Shown piece by piece: positions 17,486 through 19,883 of a stretch of DNA of 64,000 nt. The stretch is from NCBI RefSeq assembly GCF_006539525.1, contig NZ_BJNE01000006.1, positions 62,001 through 126,000 on the forward strand. The letters run 5' to 3'. The notes under the pieces are model-generated. The model had not been told where the DNA came from and made no database searches. It saw only the letters and a program-made list of their open reading frames with translations. The position numbers and the translations under genes were made by a program. Positions within the stretch are counted from its first letter, which is position 1, and every line of letters begins with the position of its first letter. This stretch comes from Glutamicibacter nicotianae. Lineage in GTDB: Bacteria > Actinomycetota > Actinomycetes > Actinomycetales > Micrococcaceae.

Positions 17486-17515
17486 TTTCGGAACGGGACG
17501 CACAGCAGATTGGAA
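17486..17515 (-). promoter_or_regulatory. Putative SigK promoter of the molybdopterin oxidoreductase
   Basis: Read on the minus strand: TTCCAATC, a 16-bp spacer, then CCGAAA, about 65 bp before the start codon at 17422. The same pattern, with the same spacing, precedes the fasciclin gene. It resembles the SigK-type CCATCC / CGAAT pattern known from mycobacteria. Confidence 0.7.
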
Positions 17516-17539
17516 CCGGCTACAAGATCTTCTGCGATC

Positions 17540-18364
17540 TCATAGCGACTGCAGCATGATGGGATCCGTCGTCGGGGCGGGGGAGCCGGTGGCCGGCTCG
17601 ACGGTGATCCCGAAATGAGTGATCCCCTGCATCGGATCGGAAACCATGATCATGCCGTTGGCATCGCTGCCCGTGAGCATTCCTGCCGGGACTGCGCCGT
17701 CGGCGGAAATCAGCCACAGCTCGTACCCTTTGTCGCTGGACAGCTCCGGCATGCCCGAGGTGGAAACCGCCATCAGTCCTTCGGCCGCGGAATAGGACAG
17801 CGTGATCGTTGCCCCGTCATCCAAGGTCTGCGTCTTGGACTTGGCATCGGGAGCCCCCAGGATCCGGGCGAGCTCTTCCTGATGTTCGGCCATGGCTGCC
17901 ATTTTGCTTTCCAGCTCGCGCTGCTCGGAATTCTGCTGGATGGCCAAGCCGCCCAACGCCGCCGCTGCCAGCAGCAGGACGCCGGCGGCCAAGGCGAAGA
18001 AGCGCTGGGTGCCGCGCGGTGCCCCGGGCTGCGGCGCCGGGGGCGTTGCCGGGGCATCGGATTCACGTTCCGCACCAGCCGTGGAGCCACTGGCGGGGGA
18101 GCTGCCCGAGGCAGGCTCCTGGTCCTGGACGGGCGGCAGCTGCTCGGTGGCGCGGATAGCTGCCATGACATCGTTCTTGAGCCGTGCTGGGGGAGCAACC
18201 GGCTGCGCTGCCAAGCCGAGCAGTCCAGCAGTTTCCTGCAAGGCATCCAGCTCGTGGCGGGCCTGGGCGGCATCTGAGTCCTGGTGCGCGAGCTTGCCGC
18301 GGTCCTCGTCTCCCAGAGCTTCCAGGGCGAAGCTGTCGGTCCGCTCGTTCTCATGCTTTTCCAT
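17540..18364 (-). CDS. rskA: Anti-sigma-K factor RskA-type
   Basis: Single-pass membrane anti-sigma factor of 274 residues. The cytoplasmic N-terminus (1-75) binds the sigma factor, with SFALEALGDEDRGKLAHQ at the start as in RskA proteins. A Pro/Ser/Ala-rich linker leads to one membrane helix (about 121-143), and the outer domain (about 185-270) shows the RskA signature GYELWLISADGAVPAGML and HFGITVEPATGSPAPT. The start codon overlaps the sigK stop as TAATG, so the pair is translationally coupled. Regulated proteolysis of RskA releases SigK in mycobacteria; the same is inferred here. Confidence 0.92.
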   Translation of the reverse strand: MEKHENERTDSFALEALGDEDRGKLAHQDSDAAQARHELDALQETAGLLGLAAQPVAPPARLKNDVMAAIRATEQLPPVQDQEPASGSSPASGSTAGAERESDAPATPPAPQPGAPRGTQRFFALAAGVLLLAAAALGGLAIQQNSEQRELESKMAAMAEHQEELARILGAPDAKSKTQTLDDGATITLSYSAAEGLMAVSTSGMPELSSDKGYELWLISADGAVPAGMLTGSDANGMIMVSDPMQGITHFGITVEPATGSPAPTTDPIMLQSL

Positions 18365-18945
18365 TACGCCACTCCCATCAGTTCTCGAAGCTTGCCCATG
18401 CCATCGCGTATTCGCGTTTTAGCGGTTCCCACCGGTACTTTCAGCAGCTCAGCGACTTCCAGGTGGGTGTATCCGCCGAAGTAGGCCAGCTGTATGGCTT
18501 CGCGTTGCGGTGCGCTGAGCTGTTGCAGTGCCCGGGCAACGCGTACGGTCTCGTCGTGCAAGATGGCGTTCTCTTCCACGTCTTCGTAGCTGTCCTGGAA
18601 TTCCTTGATTCCAATGCGCAGATCCCGGGCTTGGCTCGCTTGGCTGGAGCGCACCCGGTCCACGGCTCGGCGGTGGGCTATGGTCAGCAGCCAGGATGCA
18701 GCGGTTCCGCGGGACGGATCGAAGCGCTTGGCCTGCTGCCACGCTTCGACGAATACTTCCTGGGTGACCTCTTCGCTCTGCGCCTGGTCGCGAAGCACCC
18801 GCAGCACGAGGCCGAAGACCCGCGATGCCATGGCATCATAGAGCGATTCGAAGGCAGATTCGGCCCCCAGCGCGACCTGTCGCAACAAGTCGTCTGGCGT
18901 TTGCACGGAATCGTCTTCCATGGCGTCGAGTCTATTGGAACTCAT
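18364..18945 (-). CDS. sigK: ECF sigma factor SigK
   Basis: Alternative RNA polymerase sigma factor of 193 residues, SigK type, judged from size, sequence and the rskA partner. Region 2 shows LVLRVLRDQAQSEEVTQEVF and region 4 shows GGYTHLEVAELLKVPVGTAKTRI, the helix-turn-helix that reads the -35 element. The start is set at the ATG at 18945, with AGGA 6 bp upstream; the longer frame up to 19074 begins in the hairpin region and adds an unrelated stretch. Co-directed neighbours are the fasciclin gene upstream and rskA plus the molybdopterin gene downstream. I did not find the SigK-like promoter pattern before sigK itself. Confidence 0.93.
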   Translation of the reverse strand: MSSNRLDAMEDDSVQTPDDLLRQVALGAESAFESLYDAMASRVFGLVLRVLRDQAQSEEVTQEVFVEAWQQAKRFDPSRGTAASWLLTIAHRRAVDRVRSSQASQARDLRIGIKEFQDSYEDVEENAILHDETVRVARALQQLSAPQREAIQLAYFGGYTHLEVAELLKVPVGTAKTRIRDGMGKLRELMGVA

Positions 18946-19014
18946 GAATCCTAGAGTCTCATGCATTTGTGCCTCAGCGGCGCTCTGCGGTGGCGTGGCG
19001 TTCGGGAAATAGCT

Positions 19015-19043
19015 GTGCTGCGGGAACCACGTTCCCGCAGCAC
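19015..19043 (-). terminator. Strong hairpin between the fasciclin gene and sigK
   Basis: A perfect 13-bp GC-rich stem (19015-19027 with 19031-19043) closes a 3-nt loop. A second imperfect hairpin (19051-19062 with 19071-19082) precedes it. Together they probably end the fasciclin transcript before sigK. No clear T-run follows. Confidence 0.6.
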
Positions 19044-19115
19044 CGGCGAAGGTGGTGCATGGAAGGTATTCCACGCACCACCTCCATGCCGGCGGACCTG
19101 CTGTTTCCGGGGGTG

Positions 19116-19778
19116 CTACTTCTTGGCCGGCGGCATCAGGACGGTGTCCACCAGGTACACGGTCGCGTTGGCGGTTTGCACGCCGCCGCAGATGACCGAG
19201 GCCCCGTTGACTTCCAGATCATCACCGCTGCCGGTGACTTCAAGATCCTCGCCCTGGACCGTTTTGTGGGTTCCGGGAAGATCAGCCGGTGCGATCTGGC
19301 CGGAAACCACATGGTAGGTCAGCACGCTGGTCAGGGTGTCGGCGTCCTTGGCCACTGCTGCCAAGTCATCCTTCGGAATCTCGGCGAAGGCGTCATCCAC
19401 CGGTGCGAAGACGGTGAATTCGCCGCCGTTTAGCGTATCGACCAGGTCAACGTCCGGGTTCAGCTCGCCGGAGACTGCCGAGGTCAGCGTGGTCAGCAGC
19501 GGGTTGTTCGAGGCGGCGACGGCTACTGGATCCTGGGCCATGCCTTCTACCGAGCCATCACCGGTCGGGACTGCTTCTGCGTAGGCTGCGCAGCCTGGGC
19601 CAACGAGATTTCCGGCTGGATCCATGGCCGACTCGCTGGCCATGGGAGAGCTGCTTTCCGAAGCGGAAGCGGTGGGCGATTCCATGGTTTCCGAACCTGT
19701 CGAGCAGGCGCTCAGTCCCATGGCGGCGACTGCGATGAGCCCGAAGACTCCAGCGGCTTTGCTGTATGTGCGCTTCAT
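19116..19778 (-). CDS. Fasciclin-domain (FAS1) lipoprotein
   Basis: Exported lipoprotein of 220 residues with a lipobox ending MGLSAC (Cys 25), a Ser/Glu-rich linker, and one FAS1 domain from about 75 to 217. FAS1 motifs are visible: [22 protein letters not shown], then [12 protein letters not shown] and the final [13 protein letters not shown]. In mycobacteria the SigK-controlled proteins MPT70 and MPT83 are FAS1 proteins, MPT83 being a lipoprotein, so this is a probable counterpart. The ATG at 19778 has AAGGAG. A SigK-type promoter-like element lies about 75 bp upstream. FAS1 domains act in cell-surface adhesion; the ligand here is unknown. Confidence 0.93.
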
Positions 19779-19853
19779 GATTTTCTCCTTGCTTCGCCGC
19801 GACTATTGTCGTCGGTTCCTTACCTGTCCGTGCGGAGCAGGCTGTCATGGAGC

Positions 19854-19883
19854 ATTCGGTGCCGGATGCCTGGCGGATTGGAA
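19854..19883 (-). promoter_or_regulatory. Putative SigK promoter of the fasciclin lipoprotein
   Basis: Read on the minus strand: TTCCAATC, a 16-bp spacer, then CCGAAT. It is identical in layout to the element before the molybdopterin gene (17486-17515) although the spacer and flanks differ, which argues for functional constraint. Confidence 0.72.

Follow-up and report, generated by a model that had tools for sequence, protein, structure and literature searches.

Mycobacterial SigK promoters combine a CCATCC-like -35 element with a CGAAT-like -10 element, and the SigK targets MPT70 and MPT83 are FAS1 (fasciclin) proteins. The sigma factor and its anti-sigma factor RskA control major antigens of the tuberculosis complex, and both the signal that acts on them and the purpose of the system are stated to be unknown (PMC7509140). 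The same source, citing Veyrier 2008, describes a mpt83-sigK-rskA cassette, complete with a SigK site, in Mycobacterium tuberculosis, other Actinobacteria and Yersinia (PMC7509140). A second point of comparison comes from Rhodobacter: the RpoE singlet-oxygen regulon of R. sphaeroides includes a fasciclin gene and a photolyase, and R. capsulatus has a SigK/RskA-like pair, next to cryB, that is induced by singlet oxygen (PMC7074977).

The sigK-rskA cluster and its flanking sites

The minus strand of the window, i.e., the whole 64,000-nucleotide stretch of Glutamicibacter nicotianae DNA that was analysed, carries in this order the genes for a FAS1 lipoprotein (19778-19116), SigK (18945-18364), RskA (18364-17540) and a membrane-anchored molybdopterin oxidoreductase (MoOx; 17422-15857). 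The FAS1 lipoprotein encoded upstream of sigK is of the MPT83/MPT70 type (PF02469, E 9e-28; MPT70, 1nyo, as best solved relative, E 2e-62) and displays an LSAC lipobox. The 193 aa ECF sigma factor scores 253.5 bits with the NCBIfam SigK model NF007228 (cut-off 226), finds its best solved relative in M. tuberculosis SigK (4nqw, E 1e-45) and is the only SigK-like protein in this genome at E < 1e-40. The adjoining rskA codes for a 274 aa anti-sigma-K factor with one transmembrane segment (PF10099, 90.5 bits, cut-off 29.4; NF052375, 141 bits, cut-off 100). Going by these matches, the sigma factor, the anti-sigma factor and the FAS1 protein are clearly related to SigK, RskA and MPT70/83, respectively, of M. 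tuberculosis. In M. tuberculosis SigK the cysteine pair C133/C183 has been tied to redox control, and such a pair is found in 94% of ECF18 and 56% of ECF19 factors (PMC7509140), frequencies which imply that it is not required for SigK membership. There is no cysteine in either SigK (193 aa) or RskA (274 aa) of this locus; hence, the signal must come in another way. Two strong hairpins without a T run lie between fas1 and sigK (19017-19093, minus strand; fold of 18946-19118, z -4.5), and these are possibly an attenuator of sigK or a processing site.

The MoOx gene encodes a protein with four hydrophobic N-terminal segments, a twin-arginine motif (SRRMFLR), a fifth hydrophobic segment and then a sulfite-oxidase-type molybdopterin domain (PF00174, E 2e-43), whose nearest solved relative is a sulfite:cytochrome c oxidoreductase (E 8e-21). 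From the hydrophobic segments and the placement of SRRMFLR before the fifth of them, we infer that the catalytic domain is extracytoplasmic. Assignment to MsrP, SorT, SoxC or SorA was rejected at 62.9, 71.3, 89 and 110.6 bits against equivalog cut-offs of 207, 570, 420 and 600, respectively. The protein is best described as a putative Tat-exported redox enzyme of the sulfite-oxidase type, which could act in methionine sulfoxide repair or sulfite oxidation.

The sequence-only reading of this DNA had singled out a paired minus-strand pattern, TTCCAATC-N16-CCGAA, as a SigK-type promoter shared by the FAS1 and MoOx genes. A scan of the window recovered both matches with 0 mismatches, at 19855-19883 (site 1) and 17487-17515 (site 2); the starts first given for them, 19854 and 17486, are each one base low. 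Site 1, the candidate promoter of fas1-sigK-rskA, reads CCAATCC-N15-CCGAAT, with the end of CCGAA 77 bp upstream of the FAS1 ATG (19778), and site 2, the candidate promoter of the MoOx gene, reads CCAATCT-N15-CCGAAA, with that end 65 bp upstream of the MoOx GTG (17422). The pattern has just 2 exact matches in the 3.55 Mb genome, where ~0.1 are expected, and is absent from every dinucleotide-preserving shuffle of the window; both matches flank sigK-rskA and lie before the genes for the FAS1 lipoprotein and MoOx. The leading TT was rejected as a part of the motif, since relatives do not keep it, and the core conserved across them is (C)CAATC[C]-N15-CCGAA. Near-matches of the form CCAATC-N14-18-CCGAA (n=15 in the genome) are mostly within open reading frames, and the only one found conserved beyond sites 1 and 2 lies upstream of a gene for a DUF4383 protein.

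Conservation and reach of the sites

Both sites are present with equal spacing, as CCAATC-N16-CCGAA, in 13/13 orthologous sigK loci of Glutamicibacter (66-100% identity), and they are also kept in Paeniglutamicibacter and Arthrobacter. Across the 13 loci, aligned on the pattern itself, 11 motif columns are invariant, as compared to 4/16 spacer columns at the FAS1 site, 1/16 at the MoOx site and 1/38 upstream columns; the presence of both sites in all 13 means that the aligned set is not a selected subset. Spacers and flanks, earlier described as unrelated between the two sites, also drift between orthologues. Among 26 FAS1 genes from 17 genomes of the genus, 24 have the exact site ~103 bp upstream of the ATG, and the other two show TCGAA in place of CCGAA. 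Neither sigK nor FAS1 is present in the 18th genome (G003). In genomes with a divergent SigK (34-37%), the FAS1 site becomes TCAATCC. Glutamicibacter sp. JC586 bears a second fas1-rskA-MoOx cassette (L057 4340-5080, and L120) in which sigK has decayed and both sites are intact, as would be expected if SigK acts in trans. Elsewhere, five extra FAS1 copies with the site are found off the main sigK locus and without an intact sigK nearby.

The third site in the genome of the window precedes the gene for the DUF4383 membrane protein (PF14325), directly downstream of a photolyase gene. DUF4383 genes of this clade have the site in 9/9 cases within the genus, as against 0/7 for paralogues at 36-44% identity (Fisher p 9e-5). 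In Arthrobacter mobilis and one further genome (G005) the DUF4383 gene with its site sits between rskA and the MoOx gene. In three congeners (G002, G010 and G012) the cluster takes the form fas1-sigK-rskA-photolyase (phr)-MoOx, with a site ahead of fas1 in all three and ahead of the MoOx gene too in G010 and G012. The region upstream of the photolyase gene has no SigK site and instead features its own TTAGCTA-type palindrome; accordingly, the photolyase was rejected as a direct SigK target and is tied to the regulon by neighborhood only. The palindrome, seen just 5′ of the photolyase gene in two gene contexts (nine loci), looks like the operator of a separate regulator.

A search of 197 Micrococcaceae genomes with the GTAC-extended form CAATCC-N15-CCGAAGTAC gave 21 matches, namely 12 before fas1-sigK, six before MoOx, two before DUF4383 and one before a gene for a CHRD-like exported protein whose Pfam score is under the cut-off; the reversed form gave 0 matches in these genomes. 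Another CHRD-like gene preceded by a site occurs in Arthrobacter wenxiniae, where it is divergent from fas1. At the class level, the site with YCCGAAT yielded 51 matches in 33 of 296 genomes, and the reversed form yielded 0; an expectation from base counts, blind to composition, is ~21 matches for this form in the 296 genomes, so the zero should be taken as a guide rather than as a false-positive rate. Inspection of 30 of the 51 matches placed the site before genes for zf-HC2-type anti-sigma factors (5), FAS1 (5), DUF4331 (4; 2 confirmed by Pfam), CHRD-like proteins (2; 1 over the cut-off), UfaD-like amine oxidases (2; both genes divergent from MoOx), and DUF4383, MoOx and SigK itself (1 each, the last in L307, where the site directly precedes the SigK gene). 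Several of the remaining inspected matches are probably due to chance. Three of the four loci with DUF4331-like proteins under the site adjoin SigK-like genes. The five zf-HC2-type anti-sigma genes are from Streptomyces-like genomes, and some of them lie by an ECF factor 31-33% like SigK.

Outside the family, we considered 57 MoOx loci in a phylum-wide sample, with a strict site defined as CCAATCC or CCATCC and a spacer of 14-16. Most of these MoOx relatives are without a site; FAS1 adjoins MoOx in 11/57 loci, and a strict site before either gene is seen in 6/11 of these as opposed to 1/46 of the others (Fisher p 8e-5, with related genomes not independent). This points to an association of site, MoOx and FAS1 that is wider than the family and has a gene arrangement different from that of the Micrococcaceae: MoOx is usually 5′ of FAS1, with SigK and RskA following in two loci (L195 and L225). 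A relaxed search of the five FAS1-adjacent loci without a strict site gave nothing convincing, and three Brevibacterium MoOx relatives lack sigK, FAS1 and a site in their surroundings. In a Streptomyces-like genome, a site precedes genes for a UfaD-like amine oxidase and then DUF1365, divergent from MoOx-FAS1. CCAATC had been suggested as the local -35 form; it occurs here as CCAATCC within CCAATCC-N15-CCGAAT, and CCATCC forms at equal spacing precede MoOx in distant actinobacteria, and such forms were seen in L188, L199 and L066, the mycobacterial sites being compared by consensus description only. The last of these loci is on a contig named Acidobacteriaceae that combines actinobacterial-type CMAS, FAS1, MoOx and SigK with the CCATCC-type site and was probably misbinned. 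Likewise, contamination or mislabelling probably explains a record that bears the name of a firmicute, Sporosarcina beigongshangi, and contains two Arthrobacter-like cassettes.

A probable SigK regulon and its possible signals

Taken together, the conservation of the sites across species, their placement before genes of the same families, the joint absence of sigK and FAS1 from one genome and the family membership of SigK, RskA and the MPT70-like protein make it very probable that both sites are promoters read by the SigK encoded between them, and that its regulon includes MoOx, in agreement with the sequence-only reading. We propose that the single-span RskA would keep SigK at the membrane and that SigK, once released, would initiate transcription at the CCAATC[C]-N15-CCGAA sites. 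Site 1 would drive the FAS1 lipoprotein gene and, by read-through across the two hairpins, which may damp it, sigK-rskA as well, amounting to positive feedback; site 2 would be the MoOx gene's own promoter; and the third site, elsewhere in the genome, would drive the DUF4383 membrane protein gene beside the photolyase. The products of the regulon are all predicted to be envelope proteins.

As to what such a regulon might do, envelope defence against light-driven or other oxidative damage is a tentative reading, to which we would give a little less than an even chance. It is favoured by the photolyase genes in or beside clusters with SigK sites and by several precedents, each of them circumstantial. 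In M. kansasii the FAS1 genes mpk83 and mpk70 are light-induced together with photolyase (PMC9861118), in a soil actinobacterium RskA drops under UV (PMC8965627), and to these may be added the Rhodobacter singlet-oxygen systems. Similarly circumstantial are the UfaD-like and DUF1365 genes under the paired site in the Streptomyces-like genome, whose counterparts in Rhodobacter are responsible for furan fatty acid synthesis (PMC7380195). None of the 18 genomes of Glutamicibacter codes for a DUF1365 protein, so this furan-lipid branch is missing here, and furan fatty acid genes were rejected as members of the local regulon.

The regulon could equally be real and respond to something other than light, with sulfite, thiol or metal stress or general envelope damage freeing SigK. 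This alternative, which likewise falls just short of an even chance, fits the membership of MoOx in the sulfite oxidase fold family, the statement that the SigK signal is unknown (PMC7509140) and the fact that neither FAS1 nor MoOx need relate to light; it sits less well with the photolyase as a repeated neighbour of the cluster, the response of SigK-type FAS1 genes to light in M. kansasii (PMC9861118) and the fact that the singlet-oxygen regulon of R. sphaeroides contains both a fasciclin and a photolyase (PMC7074977).

Light or oxidation defence can be extended to a broader, more speculative scenario, possible but on the whole doubtful, wherein SigK-RskA is an actinobacterial photo-oxidative (singlet-oxygen) response with the MPT83/70-type FAS1 protein, a Tat-exported molybdoenzyme and DUF4383 as its outputs, joined in some lineages by CHRD, DUF4331 and UfaD/DUF1365 proteins. 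The FAS1 lipoprotein might here carry or shield a surface carotenoid: AstaP, a carotenoid-binding algal FAS1 protein inducible by photo-oxidative stress (PMC10147662, PMC7477208), is a weak sequence match of the FAS1 protein of the window. If true, the antigens MPT70 and MPT83 would derive from light or oxidation defence.

The remaining alternatives concern the sites rather than the signal. They might be read by an ECF sigma factor other than SigK whose specificity overlaps with it, SigK being a mere neighbour, given that ECF factors can share promoters and that sites of this kind occur upstream of zf-HC2 anti-sigma genes, near a different ECF factor, in Streptomyces-like genomes. We regard this as improbable in light of the position of the sites on either side of sigK and, in L307, directly before it, the absence of FAS1 together with sigK from G003, the change of the FAS1 site to TCAATCC with the divergent SigK, and the single SigK-like protein at E < 1e-40 in this genome. 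A repeat as short as this, picked after being seen, might also be a chance match, a possibility refuted by the shuffles, genome counts and conservation, or, in place of a promoter, an operator bound by a repressor, and the fixed spacing, near-fixed distance to the start codon, two-part -35/-10 layout, lack of a palindrome, matchless reversed controls and the behaviour of a stricter pattern with a spacer one base longer (4 matches in 18 genomes, all of them elsewhere) make the two together very improbable.

Comparison with known systems

In the available literature, MoOx, DUF4383 and CHRD proteins as SigK targets and the photolyase link are unreported; Veyrier 2008, outside that scope, may list MoOx. 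The compact and well-marked putative regulon of Glutamicibacter and Arthrobacter, which takes in MoOx and has a photolyase beside it, makes the question of the SigK signal directly testable, and the sharp definition of the site means that candidate regulons can be listed across Actinobacteria from sequence alone.

With the sulfite-oxidase-type enzymes MsrP, SorT, SoxC and SorA, MoOx shares the PF00174 molybdopterin domain and an expected export, and it differs in falling far under all equivalog cut-offs and in its extra hydrophobic N-terminal region. The Rhodobacter RpoE-ChrR system (PMC7074977) is similar in being a small ECF regulon with a fasciclin protein and a photolyase, and the R. capsulatus pair resembles SigK-RskA. 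However, R. sphaeroides has the anti-sigma factor ChrR and other lipid genes, whereas the anti-sigma factor here is RskA and the photolyase gene has no SigK site. Closest is the mpt83-sigK-rskA cassette, which has the same clustering of FAS1 lipoprotein, SigK and RskA genes and a FAS1 gene that is likewise preceded by a SigK site. The locus described here differs from it in having CCAATCC as the candidate -35 element, as judged against mycobacterial sites by their description only, and in its cysteine-free SigK and RskA. It is further set apart by the MoOx gene with its own site in the cluster and by the DUF4383 gene elsewhere in the genome.
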